From the NCBI RefSeq assembly GCF_003362725.1, contig NZ_QKTV01000001.1, positions 248,001 through 312,000 of the forward strand: a stretch of DNA of 64,000 nt, read 5' to 3'. The notes under the pieces are model-generated. The model was not told the origin of the DNA, made no database searches, and was given only the letters and a program-made list of their open reading frames with translations. The DNA is from Winogradskyella aurantiaca (GTDB lineage: Bacteria; Bacteroidota; Bacteroidia; Flavobacteriales; Flavobacteriaceae). Below are positions 1,393-56,564 of this stretch, in pieces. The position numbers were made by a program, and so were the translations under genes. The first letter of the stretch is position 1, and each line of letters opens with the position of its first letter.

Positions 1393-2454
1393 ATGAGAAA
1401 ATTAAAAGAAATAATTAAAGATTTTAGTTATAATCCTTATTTAGTAGAAAGACCATATGTTATAGCTGAGGCTGGTGTAAACCATGAAGGATCAATGGAT
1501 CTCGCCAAGCAATTAATTGATGAGGCTAAAGAAGGTGGTGCGCATGCTATCAAGTTTCAAACCTATAAGGCTGAAACAATAGCGTCGAAATTCAGTCCAT
1601 CATACTGGGATACAACTAAAGAATCCACTAAGAGTCAGTTTGAACTATTTAAGAAATATGATAAATTTTGGAAAAAGGAATATGAAGAATTAAAAACATG
1701 TTGCGATAAAGCAAATATTGAGTTTTTATCTACACCATTTGACATTGAGTCAGCTAAGTTTCTAAATGACTTAATGGATGTTTTCAAAATATCATCTTCA
1801 GATATTACAAATACCCCCTTTATTGAGTATATGTGTAGTTTCAAAAAGCCAATTATTTTATCTACAGGAGCATCTTATCTTTGGGAAATACAAGAAGCCG
1901 TTGAGACAATAATGCACCATGGTCTTCCTTTATGTTTAATGCAATGTGTATTAAATTATCCCACTTTAGATCATAATGCAAATCTAGGTATGATAAAGGA
2001 TTTAATGATGAAATTTCCAAGATGTATGCCTGGATATTCTGACCACACTCTGCCAAACGATATGAGCGTTTTGATAACAGCAAACCTATTGGGGGCCGTA
2101 ATTTTAGAGAAGCACTTTACGCATGATAAAACATTACCCGGAAATGACCATTATCATGCTATGGATAAAGTTGATCTAAAGCACTTTTTTGAAAGGATTT
2201 CGTCTATCTATAACACTGTTGGAAATGTAACTAAACGACCACTCGAATCTGAAAATACCTCAAGGAACAACGCAAGAAGAAGTTTAATTGCAAAACAAGA
2301 AATTAAAGCTGGAAAAATTATTACAAGACAAGATTTGACCTGGAAGAGACCAGCTCATGGAATATCACCAAGGGAGATAAATAACTTAATAGGGAAAACC
2401 GCTATTGAAACTATAGAGGAAGATAGTGTGTTAAAGTGGGATATGTTTAAATAA
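1393..2454 (+). CDS. N-acetylneuraminate synthase family protein (NeuB/PseI-like)
   Basis: This enzyme condenses phosphoenolpyruvate with a six-carbon amino sugar to form a nine-carbon nonulosonic acid. The N-terminal TIM barrel shows the family hallmarks VIAEAGVNHEGSMDLA near residue 25, IKFQTYKAE, the ILSTGAS strand, and GYSDHT followed by LEKHFTHD with the metal-binding histidine. The last ~60 residues (RRSLIAKQEIKAGKIITRQDLTWKRP) are the antifreeze-like SAF domain that closes the active site. Total length (~353 aa) is normal for the family. An in-frame ATG also exists at 1378, inside the upstream gene; I prefer 1393, one base after the upstream stop. It sits directly after the PseF/PseG-like fusion, so the pair forms a nonulosonic-acid module. 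The exact substrate (Leg, Pse or Neu type) is not readable. Confidence 0.9.
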   Translation: MRKLKEIIKDFSYNPYLVERPYVIAEAGVNHEGSMDLAKQLIDEAKEGGAHAIKFQTYKAETIASKFSPSYWDTTKESTKSQFELFKKYDKFWKKEYEELKTCCDKANIEFLSTPFDIESAKFLNDLMDVFKISSSDITNTPFIEYMCSFKKPIILSTGASYLWEIQEAVETIMHHGLPLCLMQCVLNYPTLDHNANLGMIKDLMMKFPRCMPGYSDHTLPNDMSVLITANLLGAVILEKHFTHDKTLPGNDHYHAMDKVDLKHFFERISSIYNTVGNVTKRPLESENTSRNNARRSLIAKQEIKAGKIITRQDLTWKRPAHGISPREINNLIGKTAIETIEEDSVLKWDMFK

Positions 2455-47196: not shown

Positions 47197-50100
47197 ATGT
47201 TCAATTTGAAGTCAATCAACTTAGTCATACTTTTGACACTATTTTCATTTGAGATGTCATTTGTTTGTGCTCAAACCATTTTAAATGTTGAGCCAACGAG
47301 GGTTACTTGGGAATCAAAAGTTACTATTACGGGAACAGGGTTTACCCCCGGTATGGAAAACAACTTGATTATAAATGGGATTGCCATTGATAACGAGACA
47401 TTTGTAAACTCCGAAACCATTACATTTGAGATTAATGAAACTAGTAGGGCTAATGACGCGTCGGAAGATATTAATCCATTTAATAGCGCTTCAAATGACC
47501 GACTAGGAAGAGTCTTAACATTTAATGGTTCTTCAACCTCTGTAACTTTTGATTTTATTGCACCTACCATACGCGTTCATAGAAAAACAGGTAGTGCTAC
47601 AAATCCGGTTGATCAGATTACAGAGATTTTTACTAATATGAATGGGTTTTCTAGGTTTTCTAGCAAAACTGATATTGTTGATGATAAGCACGAACTTTTA
47701 GCATTTACGTATAAAGGGGTAACTTATTCAACAGGAGTTGATGACCAACTTTTAACTGATAATGCAATTACATTCGTCTCTCAGGAATATAAAGCCTATT
47801 CGACGAATGGGGTTGAGGGGACTACAAATTCTGGTCATTATTTAGCAGCTGCCGATTCATCAGATGGCTTGTCGGGCAGCCCTGAAAGTGATGGAACTCC
47901 TGCTTCAAATTACTCTGACTTAAACAACCTTTTGATATACGACACTCTAATTGATGGGGTTAACGGATTAGAATTGGGGACAGGAATAACCAATCTTAAT
48001 CAAAACAACACCGTACGATTTTTTTCTGGCAATGGTCAGGTTGGAGCATTAGGAAATGAAATACCAGATTTAGTTCTAACCCAGATTGCTCAAGCCGGGG
48101 CCTGGGATATCTACTATTATGCGGATATCAATGGGAACGTAGTTGGTCGCCCGATAAGGCTTTACATTGAAGAAAACCAATCTCAAAATGAACCATTAGC
48201 AACCAATAATTGGGATTTTTACAGGTACCAACAGAATGTGAGCTTTGATGTTGCGGTTCCTGGAAATAAGGCGCTGGGTGACAACGCTACAAGACCTTTA
48301 AGGATGATGGCCTTTAAACTTGAAGAATTTGCTATTGATGCCACCAATATAGCAGATATCAATAATATTAATATGTCTGCTGGTGGAAAGGCCGATTTGG
48401 CATTTATGGCTTATAATAAATCAGCTTTCGCCATTAGATCTCCTTTTATTTCCAGTAGACCTCCCTCTCGTTACGTTTGCGAACTTCCGAGCTCAAACAT
48501 AATCTCGTTTGAGGTTGGTATTACAATCGATGGAGAAGAAAATAATTCTGGATATATTCCAACGGCAGATGAAGCTCTGTCTTACCAGTGGTATAAATAT
48601 AACTCTGAATTAGCAGGTGAAATTGATGAAGATCTTGAGTTCAATGGAGTGAGTTCGTCAGACCTGGGAACATATAGGGTAATAGTTTCCAACACCTACG
48701 GGGCTGTAATTGTACCGGTGACACTTAATGAAGGAGGGACACCAGCATTCTGGAATGGGTCATCTTGGCAATTACCAGTAGGTTATGGATCAGGACCAGG
48801 TGAAATTGCCGTAGAGGATAAAGAACGTAGTTTAAGATTTGATGAAGACTACAATGAATCTGTGGATTTAGAGGGTTGTGATTGTACGGTATCTGCTGGG
48901 AGTGATGTTGTGATACCTTCAGGTTATAGCCTTAAAGTTTTTGATGGATTTACTGTAGAGGATGAGATCCCTGCTTCTACAGATATTGATGGAACTCCTA
49001 TCCCTGCTGTCCCTGCTGGTACGTTTGTGTTAGAAAATAATGCTAGTCTGGTTCAGATCAACGATGTTTCTACCAATGACAATACTGGCGAGATCGACAT
49101 GAAGCGTACCACGAGTAATTTGAAGTTGTATGATTACATATACTGGTCTTCACCGGTAGCGGATTTTGACTTAAGTGACATACCCAACGATCGCAGTTTT
49201 TTATGGGATGTAAGGGCTGTGAACGCTAATGGTACAGATGGTGACTGGATTTCTTACACGGGTGCCATGGATATGGGGCGCGGTTATATAGCCAGGGTCC
49301 CATCAGCAGTTGATTTTACAGTGGATTATAAAGGAGTCCCTAATAATGGATTAGTAACTCGGTTTCTTGCTAAATCTGTTGGTGCACAGGATACAGGAGA
49401 TAAGCATTGGAATTTAGTGGGTAATCCCTATCCTTCAGCAATAAGTGCGGAGAAATTCTTAACCCATCCCGCCAATAGTAGGTTGACGGGTGCGGTGTAT
49501 ATCTGGAGCCGTTCAGGGGCTTTATCCAGCAGCAATCCAAGCCCTTACTATCAGGACTTTGTATACAGTTATGCTGATTCCTTTATTACTTATAATGCTG
49601 TTGGATCAGTACCATCTCGTACGTTTAGTGGTAATATTGCCGCGGGACAAGGATTTTTTGTAAAAGTAGATGATGGGGCGTCAGAAGGAAATATAGAATT
49701 TAGAAATACCATGCGTTACGGGGTGTCAGATAGCGTATTGGATAATACTGATTTCTATCGTACCAGTGGTGGTAATGCTAGCCCAGAACCCGAGCCTGAA
49801 AAGGAGCGTGTTTGGTTGGGTATTGTAGATGCTAATGATCAATCGGCTTCTACTTTAATTGGCTATTTAGATGGTGCTACAACAGGGATGGACAGATTGT
49901 ATGAAGCGTTCTTAAATAAGGGGCCTAATGAGTTGGCCATCTATTCACCATTTGAACAGGGGAGAATGGTTATACAGGGAAGGCCATTACCATTTGATGA
50001 TACGGATGTGGTTAACTTAGGTGTACAGATTCCAGCAACGGGTGAATACACTATAGGAATCGATAAGCTGGATGGAGAGGCATTAATGGAAGAAGACTTA

Positions 50101-50472
50101 CCGATTATTCTGGAAGACTTACTCACTGGTCTTACCTACAATTTAAAAGAAGCACCAGCAACCATTACAATTGATGAAGGTACTTATGAAGATAGATTTG
50201 TACTGCGATATAATGCCAATCAGCTAAGTACTAAAGACGTTGATACTACAGAAACCATTGCCTATATCAAGGATGATATCCTGCATGTACAATCCTCTAT
50301 AGTAATAGATAAGGTACAGGTATACGATATGACAGGGAAGCGTGTGATGGAGTATGAACCAGAGACTAACAGTACTACGATACAAACAGACTTTAACTTC
50401 TCAAGAGGGGTTTATATCACCCTTATAAGTTTGAATGGGGACCTCAGTATTAGTAAGAAGCTTATTAATTAG
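47197..50472 (+). CDS. Giant T9SS-exported IPT/TIG and Ig-like surface protein B
   Basis: A 1091-residue paralogue of protein A. It has a signal peptide (MFNLKSINLVILLTLFSFEM...VCAQ), an IPT/TIG domain (ILNVEPTRVTWESKVTITGTGFT), the shared middle region (GITNLNQNNTVRFFSGNGQVG and DIYYYADINGNVVGRPI), an Ig-like domain (LSYQWYKYNSELAG...DLGTYRVIVSNTYGA) and the near-identical 462-residue C-terminal module with the T9SS sorting signal. It lacks the ~160-residue N-terminal insertion of protein A. Outside the C-terminal module the two proteins are clearly homologous but much more diverged. Function unknown; adhesion or polymer binding is an inference from the domain types. The stop lies 5 nt before the convergent trpS stop. 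Confidence 0.86.
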   Translation: MFNLKSINLVILLTLFSFEMSFVCAQTILNVEPTRVTWESKVTITGTGFTPGMENNLIINGIAIDNETFVNSETITFEINETSRANDASEDINPFNSASNDRLGRVLTFNGSSTSVTFDFIAPTIRVHRKTGSATNPVDQITEIFTNMNGFSRFSSKTDIVDDKHELLAFTYKGVTYSTGVDDQLLTDNAITFVSQEYKAYSTNGVEGTTNSGHYLAAADSSDGLSGSPESDGTPASNYSDLNNLLIYDTLIDGVNGLELGTGITNLNQNNTVRFFSGNGQVGALGNEIPDLVLTQIAQAGAWDIYYYADINGNVVGRPIRLYIEENQSQNEPLATNNWDFYRYQQNVSFDVAVPGNKALGDNATRPLRMMAFKLEEFAIDATNIADINNINMSAGGKADLAFMAYNKSAFAIRSPFISSRPPSRYVCELPSSNIISFEVGITIDGEENNSGYIPTADEALSYQWYKYNSELAGEIDEDLEFNGVSSSDLGTYRVIVSNTYGAVIVPVTLNEGGTPAFWNGSSWQLPVGYGSGPGEIAVEDKERSLRFDEDYNESVDLEGCDCTVSAGSDVVIPSGYSLKVFDGFTVEDEIPASTDIDGTPIPAVPAGTFVLENNASLVQINDVSTNDNTGEIDMKRTTSNLKLYDYIYWSSPVADFDLSDIPNDRSFLWDVRAVNANGTDGDWISYTGAMDMGRGYIARVPSAVDFTVDYKGVPNNGLVTRFLAKSVGAQDTGDKHWNLVGNPYPSAISAEKFLTHPANSRLTGAVYIWSRSGALSSSNPSPYYQDFVYSYADSFITYNAVGSVPSRTFSGNIAAGQGFFVKVDDGASEGNIEFRNTMRYGVSDSVLDNTDFYRTSGGNASPEPEPEKERVWLGIVDANDQSASTLIGYLDGATTGMDRLYEAFLNKGPNELAIYSPFEQGRMVIQGRPLPFDDTDVVNLGVQIPATGEYTIGIDKLDGEALMEEDLPIILEDLLTGLTYNLKEAPATITIDEGTYEDRFVLRYNANQLSTKDVDTTETIAYIKDDILHVQSSIVIDKVQVYDMTGKRVMEYEPETNSTTIQTDFNFSRGVYITLISLNGDLSISKKLIN
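49087..50472 (+). repeat. Direct repeat, copy 2: C-terminal cargo module
   Basis: Second copy of the 1386-bp module at 45634-47019. The tight conservation of this half beside diverged N-terminal halves suggests recent duplication, gene conversion or shared constraint from the sorting and attachment machinery. Confidence 0.93.
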
Positions 50473-52671: not shown

Positions 52672-54153
52672 CTAAAACTTAAAATTTAATCCTGTATATA
52701 CTCCAATAAACATAGGTTGTACATTTCCAAATGTTCTATTGAAAGTATTGAATTGATACTTCAACGTCGGTTCAAGCATCACATTTAATTGTTTTGTAAT
52801 TCCATAATCAAATCCAATTCCAAAATTGGCACTGTAACTGGTACTATTTAAATTACTGGATTGACCAATGACTTCTCTTTCGCCACTAAAAATGGTAGAT
52901 ACCTGATTGTTGTTTAAAAAGAAGGTACTAAATCCACCAACTAAATTGACACCAAATTTTTTGTCTAAAACGCGGTATTCAAGAGCTACCGGAAGTTCTA
53001 CATAACCATAATCCAGTACTAATTGCCCTAGATCCTCTTCCATGTTGGCCATGCTATTGGCAGAAGCCCCTTTTAATAAAGGGCTAGCACTCATTAAGTA
53101 GACATTGGAATCTGAATTTAGTACTACTGTTGCTAATGCCAGTTCAGAAGGAGGCTCTAATGAATTAACAACAGAATTGAAGGCCATAACCTCATTAGTG
53201 GTATTGGTAAAATCTACTCTGTTTAATCCGGCTCTAACTTTTAATCGATTGGAAACTGCATAACTTGCTCCAACTCCATAACTAACGGTGACATCGCTGG
53301 ATTTAGAATTTTCATTGAATTGACTGTGAATTGTAGATCCTTCGCCAAGTGCCATTGAATAAACGGGCGCCACTACAGGAGAAACACTCCAACGCTGGGG
53401 TAAGGCTTCTTTAGCCACGGGAGCATCTTTTAAGGCTTCTGCTTCGGCAATCGCTTCTTCAATGGTTTGACTCTGGGTTAATTCTTCTTTTTCAATTATA
53501 TCTTCTTTCTGTGCTTCTTCGGGTTTTATTGCTGCTGTAATAATAACCTCGTCAGATGTTACTAGGCCATTTTGCAATACATCAGTCTTGATAGCAGCGT
53601 TACTAGGCTCTTTGGAATCAGAACTATAGCTACTTCCGTTATCTGGGGTATTGTATTCTTGAGAAGCCACCAAAGTTGTTTTAGATTCCCCATTGGTAAT
53701 AGATTTTGACGATCCTTTTTCAATGTTGGTCACTTTCTCATTTTCAGATGAGGCCTCTAAGCCAGAATTGGAAGCTTCAGGTCCGTTGGGTTGACCTGTA
53801 TTGGTTTCCTCAACAGCAACCTTTGGGGTTGTGGCATCCGTATTTATATCGAAAGTAGAATCTGGGGATTCACTGTCTTCTTTTGGGATCGCAGAATTTT
53901 CAGTATCTACTATTACTGGGGTGCTAGTATTGGAAGTTTCAGAGGATGTCAACCAATTTATACCTGCGGTTAAAAATAATAAGAGCATGGCAGCAACACC
54001 ACCAACGCGCCACCAAATAGGAATAACGCGTCTCTTCTTTTTATCCTTATTCAGTTCTTGTTCAATCCTATTCCACATTTCCGGACTAGGACTTTGTTCA
54101 AAATCTTTGAACTTTTCCTGAAACAGTCTATCTATGTCCTTCTTTTCACTCAT
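52672..54153 (-). CDS. Putative dual-membrane-spanning anti-sigma protein (cytoplasmic domain, inner-membrane helix, periplasmic linker, outer-membrane barrel)
   Basis: A 493-residue protein with an unusual order of parts. Residues 1-~42 are charged (IDRLFQEKFKDFEQSPSPEMWNRIEQEL) and resemble the short cytoplasmic anti-sigma motif of Bacteroidota. Residues ~44-68 are one membrane helix (WWRVGGVAAMLLLFLTAGI). Residues ~70-253 are a low-complexity Ser/Thr/Glu/Asn-rich linker, long enough to cross the periplasm. Residues ~254-493 are an amphipathic beta-strand region typical of small PorT-like outer-membrane barrels, ending in the aromatic NFKF. There is no cleavable signal. The gene starts 2 nt after the ECF sigma gene. 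This matches what has been described in Bacteroides as dual membrane-spanning anti-sigma factors. A plain outer-membrane protein with an N-terminal anchor is the alternative. Confidence 0.8.
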   Translation of the reverse strand: MSEKKDIDRLFQEKFKDFEQSPSPEMWNRIEQELNKDKKKRRVIPIWWRVGGVAAMLLLFLTAGINWLTSSETSNTSTPVIVDTENSAIPKEDSESPDSTFDINTDATTPKVAVEETNTGQPNGPEASNSGLEASSENEKVTNIEKGSSKSITNGESKTTLVASQEYNTPDNGSSYSSDSKEPSNAAIKTDVLQNGLVTSDEVIITAAIKPEEAQKEDIIEKEELTQSQTIEEAIAEAEALKDAPVAKEALPQRWSVSPVVAPVYSMALGEGSTIHSQFNENSKSSDVTVSYGVGASYAVSNRLKVRAGLNRVDFTNTTNEVMAFNSVVNSLEPPSELALATVVLNSDSNVYLMSASPLLKGASANSMANMEEDLGQLVLDYGYVELPVALEYRVLDKKFGVNLVGGFSTFFLNNNQVSTIFSGEREVIGQSSNLNSTSYSANFGIGFDYGITKQLNVMLEPTLKYQFNTFNRTFGNVQPMFIGVYTGLNFKF

Positions 54154-54155
54154 TG

Positions 54156-54701
54156 CTATAAGGAATGTGAATTCCTTGATGCTTTATAGTTTTCAATCTT
54201 TTGTTTTAAAATCAACCTGGCTCTTGCCAAATTAGATTTTGAGGTTCCTTCACTGATCTCTAAAAGACCGGCGATCTCTTTGTGGGTGTACCCATCTAAA
54301 GCGTATAAATTAAATACGAGTCTGTATCTATCGGGGAGTTCCTGGATTAACTGCAAAAGAAAATCCACATTAAAGAGCGATTCATCTTCAATTTCAACAC
54401 TGACAGAAGAAATATTTTCCTCTTTTACAATGTCAAACACCGCTGTCCCGCGATAACGTTGTAAAGCAGTATTAACTGCTATACGCTTCATCCAACCTTC
54501 AAAAGAACCTTTAAAATTATACTGATCTATTTTCTTGAAAATAGTTATAAACGCATCTTGCAAATTATCTTCTGCGTCCGCATAATTTTTTGAATACTTA
54601 AGACAGAGTGTAAACAGCTTACTTGCGTATAGCTGATAGAGCTGACCCTGTGCTTTGGTATCATTTCTTTTACAATTTTCTATGAGCTGTTTTAAACTCA
54701 C
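54156..54701 (-). CDS. ECF-type RNA polymerase sigma factor
   Basis: A 181-residue sigma-70 family factor with only regions 2 and 4. Region 2 contains LKYSKNYADAEDNLQDAFITIFKKIDQYNFKGSFEGWMKRIAVNTALQRYR; region 4 contains LPDRYRLVFNLYALDGYTHKEIAGLLEISEGTSKSNLARARLILKQKI with the helix-turn-helix. The start is GTG at 54701 (the nearby ATG at 54703 is in another frame and hits a stop at once). It lies between a lipoprotein gene (22-nt gap) and the Dma-like gene (2-nt gap). Its targets are unknown; autoregulation is common for such operons. Confidence 0.94.
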   Translation of the reverse strand: MSLKQLIENCKRNDTKAQGQLYQLYASKLFTLCLKYSKNYADAEDNLQDAFITIFKKIDQYNFKGSFEGWMKRIAVNTALQRYRGTAVFDIVKEENISSVSVEIEDESLFNVDFLLQLIQELPDRYRLVFNLYALDGYTHKEIAGLLEISEGTSKSNLARARLILKQKIENYKASRNSHSL

Positions 54702-54723
54702 ATTACTATTGGGATTAGTTGAT

Positions 54724-55134
54724 TTATTCTATTATTGGAACCTCTACGGTGTAAAATTCATTGTTTCCGGTGTAACCCAGACCTTGATAGAATTTAAACA
54801 CAAATGATCCTGTTCCATCAACAGTAAAATCAAAACTAACTCTAACTTCTTCAGGAACATCATTGCAATTATCAGTTAAATCAACTGAATTTACAACGCC
54901 TACGGTTCGTTCTTGATTGTTACCTTGAAATGAGAAATCACTGAACGTATAGCAGCTATTTGGTGCGATATACGTTACTTCAATTTCATAAGATTGCCCT
55001 TTTGAAAATTCAGTAGGCAAAACCACTTCCTTAACAGGCAACACTTCAAGATAGAAGTCTGGGGTACTATCAATGTCATTACTGCAAGCAGAAATGAAAA
55101 CTGATATCACTATCAGAAATACCAATCTTCTCAT
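54724..55134 (-). CDS. Lipoprotein encoded ahead of the ECF sigma factor
   Basis: A 136-residue lipoprotein: signal LVFLIVISVFISACSNDIDSTPD with the lipobox cysteine near residue 17. The mature part is beta-rich, with SKGQSYEIEVTYIAPNSCYTFSDFSFQGNNQERTV and a second cysteine pair (SCYTF; DNCND) that may form a disulfide in the periplasm. I do not recognise a named family. Position as the first gene of the sigma/anti-sigma operon suggests a sensor, ligand or modulator of the pathway, which is inference. Confidence 0.75.
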   Translation of the reverse strand: MRRLVFLIVISVFISACSNDIDSTPDFYLEVLPVKEVVLPTEFSKGQSYEIEVTYIAPNSCYTFSDFSFQGNNQERTVGVVNSVDLTDNCNDVPEEVRVSFDFTVDGTGSFVFKFYQGLGYTGNNEFYTVEVPIIE

Positions 55135-55193
55135 AGATTCCCAATTAGCATTTAGTAGATGTATAAATTCTAAAATGGTTGCGTCTTAAAAGC

Positions 55194-56263: not shown

Positions 56264-56349
56264 CCATTTATTTTACTTTTTTTAATTCCAGACGCAACCA
56301 TTTTGGAGTTTTCACATCTAATAAAAAAAGCAATGAATAAATTTTGATT

Positions 56350-56530
56350 TCGTAGGATGTTTAAATGGTTTAAAAACATCAGAAATCGTGCACATTCGGT
56401 GGTCCAATAGTGAAAAAGAGATCTATTGATAAGCCCATAGTAGCTAGTGAGCGTATTTAGATTTTAGCACAAATATTTAACGAGTTAGGCTACAAAAAAG
56501 CACCTTAATTTTATTTTGAGGTGCTTTTTT
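56350..56530 (+). ncRNA. Candidate small RNA with its own terminator
   Basis: A stretch of ~180 nt with two stem-loops (7 bp at 56356-56380 and 6 bp at 56405-56428) is followed by a clear terminator, yet contains no reading frame. The downstream gene appears to start transcription after the terminator. No recognised promoter was found at its 5' end, so the boundaries are guesses. It does not match tmRNA, RNase P or SRP RNA as far as I can see; a 6S-like RNA is possible but not demonstrated. Confidence 0.35.
56492..56530. terminator. Orphan terminator upstream of trhO
   Basis: AAGCACCTTAA (56498-56508) pairs with the TTGAGGTGCTT arm ending at 56526 (one G-T pair), with an A-run before and TTTTTT after. 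It works on either strand by sequence. No protein gene ends immediately before it on the plus strand. Confidence 0.82.
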
Positions 56531-56564
56531 TATTGCACAATCCTTTCTAACCGCTTAAATATGA

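Follow-up and report, generated by a model that had tools for sequence, protein, structure and literature searches.

What does a sigma factor switch on when its gene lies between those of a lipoprotein and of a protein that seems to reach from the cytoplasm to the outer membrane? This question is raised by a three-gene operon in a 64,000-nt stretch of DNA from Winogradskyella aurantiaca (Bacteria; Bacteroidota; Bacteroidia; Flavobacteriales; Flavobacteriaceae), corresponding to positions 248,001-312,000 of the forward strand of contig NZ_QKTV01000001.1 in assembly GCF_003362725.1. The whole stretch is called the window below, and positions are given in its own numbering. The operon encodes a lipoprotein, an extracytoplasmic function (ECF) sigma factor, and a 493-aa protein, hereafter the long protein. 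Taken together, sequences, structural models, and published analogues make it probable that the operon is a Dma/Reo-type switch that responds to outer-membrane stress, regulates its own expression, and has surface lipoproteins as its main output. What is new here is the output, that is, a regulon defined by a promoter word together with an RNA candidate; the core is already known.

All three genes are encoded on the minus strand. The lipoprotein gene comes first (54724-55134; 136 aa, with MRRLVFLIVISVFISAC|SND around the lipobox), followed after 22 nt by the sigma gene (54156-54701; GTG start, 181 aa) and after a further 2 nt by the long-protein gene (52672-54153). An intrinsic terminator of 10 pairs and a T-run (52606-52584, minus strand) closes the operon; five terminator-like sites were found in the window against 3.8 in shuffled sequence, so the place of this terminator counts for more than its existence. 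The arrangement had been described in the same terms by a first-pass annotation made from the letters alone, and its coordinates were confirmed.

The sigma factor contains regions 2 and 4 (Pfam Sigma70_r2, 5.8e-14; Sigma70_r4_2, 5.9e-17), and the nearest solved chains were SigW (5wuq, E 8e-17) and sigma-E (1or7, E 6e-16). The long protein was modeled with AlphaFold2 on 69 aligned sequences. Residues 1-45 (54019-54153, minus strand, as for all parts of this protein) form the predicted cytoplasmic, sigma-binding part, a charged segment by its sequence, with helices at 7-15 and 24-36 whose block predicted local distance difference test (pLDDT) values were 61-81. Residues 46-69 (53947-54018) were predicted as a single inner-membrane helix, and residues 70-254 (53392-53946) as a disordered tether with a short helix at its end (231-243); pLDDT was below 50 for residues 73-114 and 116-229, and the linker measures about 157-185 residues. 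The remainder (255-493; 52675-53391) was modeled as an eight-strand barrel, with the main strands lying between 255 and 492, mostly at pLDDT above 90. The best Foldseek match of the barrel in PDB was OmpA (9fzc, E 3e-8), Pfam assigned it to OMP_b-brl (1e-7), and the separate search of solved structures with the long protein gave nothing useful. In the alignment W27 was invariant and W47, A54, and A55 were at least 90% conserved. Direct reading of the sequence and the model both point to a protein without a cleavable signal peptide. The helix, tether, and barrel that the first-pass annotation had foreseen are thus all present in the model, and its proposal of a membrane-spanning anti-sigma factor fits a single chain of this build encoded behind a sigma gene. 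Because this is the Dma/Reo layout, the core of the operon belongs to a known type.

The N-terminus of the long protein was followed through the phylum with a profile search of 196 genomes at E 1e-5, which returned matches in 44 genomes, and 29 loci were inspected. Outside the family the matches mostly covered the N-terminal part only, one genome (G287) matched at full length, and a few matched only later parts. A sigma open reading frame (ORF) stood directly upstream of the long-protein-type N-terminus in 28 of the 29 loci. This count includes 11 family orthologues (L348-L358), one of them (L356) with a short sigma ORF (135 aa). The sole exception (L361, genome G272) is a natural internal deletion within the sigma-anti-sigma pair: a single ORF (1498-2154, minus strand of that locus) in which about 64 first residues of the sigma factor are fused to a Dma-type barrel end. 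At extra places within family genomes, the same N-terminus was found behind a sigma ORF in all 12 inspected of the 35 listed. Since the N-terminus stands behind sigma genes with or without a barrel match, it appears to travel with sigma genes, and this pairing is the best evidence here for an anti-sigma role, with binding between the two predicted. A tethered, OmpA-like structural protein would also have an OmpA-like barrel and would explain why the anti-sigma profile match was weak (NF052375, E 0.002, 18 bits against a cut-off of 100); such a reading is very unlikely given the conserved N-terminus behind sigma genes even where no barrel matches, and proteins already described with this layout function as anti-sigma factors (PMC9308784, PMC13088901).

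The operon was traced through a first sample of 100 Flavobacteriaceae genomes, in which 82 loci were taken around the best long-protein matches, and through a set of 80 named loci (Winogradskyella, Psychroserpens, Algibacter, and others) that overlaps partly with the genomes of the other set. At E 0.001 the long protein matched in 84 of the 100 genomes and the lipoprotein in 66. The sigma gene adjoins the long-protein gene in 81 of 82 loci and in 79 of 80 named loci, and in 64 of 81 pairs the two genes overlap or lie at most 12 nt apart. The first-pass annotation had called for a survey of whether the lipoprotein gene stays with its neighbors; it mostly does, being directly upstream of the sigma gene in 61 of the 82 first-sample loci and in 75 of the 80 named ones, and it has no match in 18 of the 82 loci, which keep the sigma and long-protein genes. 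One of these 18 genomes (G016) carries a lipoprotein copy elsewhere (L154), and in the other three non-adjacent cases the copy lies 2 kb away (L062) or the locus is cut by a contig end (L125, L134). The chromosomal neighborhood of the operon is conserved as a block, with recA in 73, a convergent acyltransferase gene in 74, and trpS in 72 of the 82 loci; recA was near the operon in 77 of the 80 named loci.

Alignment of the regions upstream of the lipoprotein genes at their start codons revealed the promoter-like word ACGCAACC-N15-YATCT, and the operon promoter candidate in the window reads ACGCAACC-N15-CATCT (55157-55184, minus strand). The GCAACC core with CATCT or TATCT was present in 77 of 93 sigma loci, a set consisting of 81 orthologous loci of the first sample, 77 of which had it, and 12 extra family loci; the spacing was 15 in 75 loci and 14 in two. 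The same core preceded the operon in 79 of 80 named loci. The 16 sigma loci lacking the word were the 12 extra loci and four others (L062, L094, L111, L125), of which L094 and L111 are one base off and L125 lies at a contig end. Where the lipoprotein was missing, the word stood before the sigma gene in most such loci. Across the 100 family genomes there were 318 exact matches to the word against 6 to the reversed word. It occurred in 81 genomes of this sample, at about four copies each, and all 16 genomes without a long-protein match lacked it; the genomes with a long-protein match and without the word were G022 (where only the N-terminus matched, and weakly), G029 (first A replaced by G), and G088 (contig end). 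In a second sample, comprising 19 family genomes and 179 genomes outside the family, the word was found in 15 of the 19, and the outside genomes gave 25 matches against 16 reversed, suggesting that it rises above chance only in Flavobacteriaceae. No exact match was found in 300 shuffled stretches of 600 nt. Chance as the source of the word was ruled out by these shuffled stretches and the reversed controls.

In the genome of the window, five full word copies were found, preceding the operon, a divergent transcript, two other lipoprotein genes, and a gene for a SusC-like receptor. The looser matches numbered seven, among them two without the leading ACG (L161, L167), the former inside an ORF. 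A set of 99 sites was assembled to examine the products, namely 80 of 94 listed further sites in relatives, 16 from the second sample, and 3 from the window genome itself. A start codon lay within 100 nt downstream at 78 of these sites, and 69 of the 78 genes passed a lipoprotein rule (66 after removal of three miscalled RmlD enzymes), compared with 88 of 1072 background ORFs from family loci and the window (Fisher 3e-56 on the 69), the rule being home-made and the background ORFs coming mostly from one locus type. At least two acidic residues among the six after the Cys were present in 49 of the 69, compared with 28 of the 88 background ORFs, and this enrichment fits the published surface-export signal of acidic residues after the Cys (PMC5080379). 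The proteins themselves appear unrelated. Pfam searches of 82 products returned SusD-like, PrcB_C, LVIVD, lipocalin-like, TonB-receptor plug, and RmlD families; among the 25 families listed, none occurred in more than five products, and in an alignment of all products only Met1 and Cys17 reached 90%. As judged from these sequences, what the regulon shares is the address rather than the protein.

Genome G202 had 12 word matches, eight of which, on contig C1, were one repeated sequence and were left out of the regulon count; the repeat is perhaps an insertion element, which could place genes under the sigma factor. At two further sites (L175, L179) a leader of 377-392 nt separates the word from a gene that looks, by eye, like SRPBCC, and this leader is possibly another small RNA.

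Besides the limits on the lipoprotein rule and its background, several observations weigh against the reading that this sigma factor recognizes the word and thereby commands the lipoproteins. There were just five full copies in the window genome, and no start codon lay within 100 nt at 21 of the 99 sites. The word also stands before RmlD-type genes, five recognized by Pfam and a sixth (L230) by eye. Of the 12 family genomes of the second sample that had a full-length relative, six carried the exact word before the operon; near forms were seen in G167 and G240 (spacing 14) and G229 (AAGCAACC), G206 and G187 showed no word in the 600 nt next to the gene start used for each, and G183 fell outside the stretch. 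Genome G252, in which the long protein has no match, carries one word copy before a lipoprotein gene, and its sigma factor is only 40% identical. The link between sigma factor and word is drawn from position and co-occurrence, and the co-occurrence is partly built in because the operon itself carries a word copy. In addition, the available part of a promoter survey of Flavobacterium psychrophilum gives six motifs, none of them written as GCAACC/CATCT (PMC9723704); it describes a different ECF motif, containing a CGT box, and notes that further ECF starts may await discovery.

These observations bear on an improbable alternative, that the sigma factor reads the word not at all or not alone and another ECF sigma factor drives the operon and the lipoproteins. 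Several ECF factors occur in flavobacteria, with seven in F. psychrophilum (PMC9723704), the evidence for the link is of the positional kind just described, and, as in G252 with its more distant sigma factor, the word copies at L251, L253, and L256 lie near a sigma factor that is 41% identical. Such a factor would leave unexplained why the 16 first-sample genomes without the long protein have no copy, and why the word stands directly before the sigma gene where the lipoprotein has been lost and before none of the 12 extra sigma genes. We retain the operon's own sigma factor as the candidate reader of the word.

With respect to the RmlD-like genes behind the word (L170, L197, L199, L204, L230, L239), they occur in six genera without the operon lipoprotein, and the spacers at these sites are alike, ending in GAYTGG before YATCT; we read them as a clade-specific change of target.

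The place of the first gene, the operon lipoprotein, was considered against this background. Among 64 sequences Cys17, P40, and C61 were invariant and C90 was at least 90% conserved, and the predicted structure was all-beta with a mean pLDDT of 92. After the lipobox Cys the relatives carry an acidic, export-type signal with the consensus SCSxDDD, of which the W. aurantiaca copy, CSNDIDS, is a weaker form; by lipobox Cys and acidic signal the protein is classed with the surface lipoproteins of Bacteroidota, and a place on the surface is predicted. NigD membership was ruled out on sequence, and a fold resemblance near noise remains. No NigD profile matched the window lipoprotein at E up to 1, no NigD appeared among the 25 families listed of the 40 matched by the 64 members, a search of the window genome for NigD_C (PF17415) at E 0.001 gave no match, and a profile comparison with 15 NigD-type proteins aligned only the signal peptide. 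Foldseek returned no match to the lipoprotein model at E 0.001 or better, and a search of solved structures with the lipoprotein profile gave nothing useful. Among the rows listed by the structural alignment, the top one was 3qwn, a protein named NigD-like (Z 6.2, root-mean-square deviation 3.5, 92 residues aligned); rows 6, 7, and 10 were other Bacteroides or Parabacteroides proteins, and complement domains scored 5-6. Free-standing relatives of the lipoprotein, without the promoter word upstream, were observed in six genomes (L154-L159).

The first-pass annotation had regarded this lipoprotein as a possible input to the switch. As an input, it would bind the barrel from the surface or the periplasm and set the anti-sigma factor; its place as first gene of the operon in most loci suits such a role, and the two conserved Cys residues and the conserved core suggest a defined function. 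Nevertheless, it has no match before the sigma gene in the 18 loci that keep the sigma and long-protein genes, and the same promoter word precedes dozens of lipoprotein genes unrelated to it, so we read it as an output rather than an input. Output is the more likely of the two, and the input role is unlikely.

A second arm of the output may be an RNA. A second, divergent copy of the word (56292-56319, plus strand) lies upstream of recA and points to trhO, and it precedes a small-RNA candidate (56327-56533, plus strand) with terminator arms at 56494-56508 and 56516-56530. The fold of this candidate had a z of -2.49, with 4 of 200 shuffles as good. The divergent copy was found in 49 of 74 recA-bearing loci, window included, and in 67 of 77 named loci. 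Its distance to trhO varied from 176 to 1933 nt, which argues against trhO being its fixed target, and in most of the divergent transcripts printed a hairpin and T-run were seen by eye before trhO. The sequence GCTATGAA was present near the 5' end of 42 of the 67 named and 32 of the 49 other transcripts.

Many of these transcripts can also encode a peptide. An ORF of about 30 codons ending in DGG was found in 45 of 110 non-redundant transcripts from many genera and was kept in 22 of the 67 named loci; in the window the peptide has decayed. When one DGG peptide was searched against the 100 family genomes, 28 matches were obtained, one place in each genome, and 26 of these were at the recA-linked operon; of the other two, one (G078) lay on a different contig that has a pair of word copies, and one was a weak match inside an unrelated ORF. 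For the 45 ORF-bearing sequences, the only structure that RNAalifold gave on the whole alignment was a hairpin (energy -3.2) within the ORF, which was kept through changes on both sides, with 37-45 of 45 paired per position; as it lies in coding sequence, codon constraint could mimic the pairing. A stem after the stop codon had a mean of 10.1 pairs against 6.0 with shuffled partners (99th percentile of the null, 10; not tree-aware), and 35 different stems, the shortest of 6 pairs, were found in the 45 sequences. The transcript or its peptide had no Pfam or NCBIfam match. Rfam gave no match over the gathering score in ten relatives, and for the window stretch sub-gathering matches only, to rli40 (E 8e-5, 29 of 100 bits) and ncr1015 (E 0.002, 39 of 60 bits). 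A plain peptide gene was considered and found insufficient, as the ORF is confined to the fractions given above and hairpins were seen elsewhere by eye. No published description of the promoter word or the RNA candidate was found in the open-licence literature.

In three genomes of the genus labelled g101, tentatively Flavobacterium, two tandem word copies 176-179 nt apart lie between recA and the acyltransferase gene (3240/3416 in L248, 2920/3099 in L249, 3139/3317 in L250), the second transcript having a short Lys-rich ORF. In the same three genomes the word precedes a gene for a lipoprotein of 286-291 aa, and in the two that were checked a 132-aa exported protein is encoded between this lipoprotein and a 41%-identical sigma factor. 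The g101 genomes G167 and G240 keep the order of lipoprotein, sigma factor, and long protein.

These elements can be combined into the following model. Residues 1-45 of the long protein would hold the sigma factor at the cytoplasmic side of the inner membrane. Trouble in the outer membrane, or in the assembly of the barrel or of lipoproteins, would pass along the tether and free the sigma factor, making the long protein a putative direct sensor of the outer membrane, as the first-pass annotation had also supposed. The freed factor would then read the word at the operon, at lipoprotein genes, at some genes for SusC, SusD, or other outer-membrane proteins, and at the RNA, and the response would raise the operon itself, surface lipoproteins, and the small RNA. 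The first-gene lipoprotein would chiefly be an output that might also feed back on the sensor, and the lipoproteins may possibly serve remodelling, shielding, or a sacrificial coat. A broader proposal, slightly less likely than not, is that a dedicated surface-lipoprotein regulon extends across the Flavobacteriaceae under this membrane-spanning switch, with the sigma-dependent RNA beside recA as a second arm whose logic would resemble that of the small RNAs under sigma-E. Since the RNA encodes the conserved 30-residue DGG peptide in many genera, both RNA and peptide may act.

Dma/Reo systems have hitherto been known from gut Bacteroidales. Here, the promoter word points to candidate direct targets in a large family of environmental bacteria, mutually unrelated lipoproteins are suggested as the common output, and an RNA candidate outside the Rfam families is added to a switch of this type. 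Together these provide a handle on how Bacteroidota may remodel their surface in response to outer-membrane disturbance. Elsewhere in the window, a 1091-aa secreted protein (47197-50472, plus strand) has a weak match to a type IX sorting domain (Por_Secre_tail, E 7e-4, below the cut-off).

The enterobacterial sigma-E regulon has a small-RNA arm. Like sigma-E, the factor described here would be an envelope sigma factor with proteins as well as a structured RNA under its control; unlike that case, the RNA candidate lies beside recA and can encode a peptide. In Flavobacterium johnsoniae, depletion of the assembly factor TamL is reported to have increased 31 of 47 changed outer-membrane lipoproteins, surface ones foremost (PMC12045153). 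Closer relatives in layout are Dma1-Das1 and Dma2-Das2 of Bacteroides thetaiotaomicron, in which an N-terminal anti-sigma part, a transmembrane helix, a disordered tether, and a barrel follow one another in the order that was modeled for the 493-aa protein; Dma2 is encoded in an operon of three genes whose expression increases in the dma2 mutant, and NigD1 is induced in the dma1 mutant and required there for vesicles (PMC13088901). In Phocaeicola vulgatus, Reo reaches from the cytoplasm to the surface (PMC9308784), and EcfO drives NigD surface lipoproteins, with induction by outer-membrane toxins (PMC9308784, PMC13114119). The first-pass annotation had taken the lipoprotein for the component least like known cases, a view that this precedent does not support: the regulon includes three NigD surface lipoproteins, and a nigD gene (M0N98_03762) is numbered beside ecfO (M0N98_03761) and reo (M0N98_03760) (PMC13114119). 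At NigD loci elsewhere, a sigma gene stood beside nigD in 4 of 19, divergent in three and on the same strand in one. By analogy, the operon lipoprotein occupies the place of NigD and probably shares its regulation. The Winogradskyella operon therefore resembles EcfO-Reo in having an ECF sigma factor followed by a protein that is predicted to span from the cytoplasm to an outer-membrane barrel, and differs from it in a 136-aa lipoprotein without a NigD sequence match, a promoter word that exceeds chance only in this family, a wider and variable set of lipoproteins, and the divergent RNA candidate.

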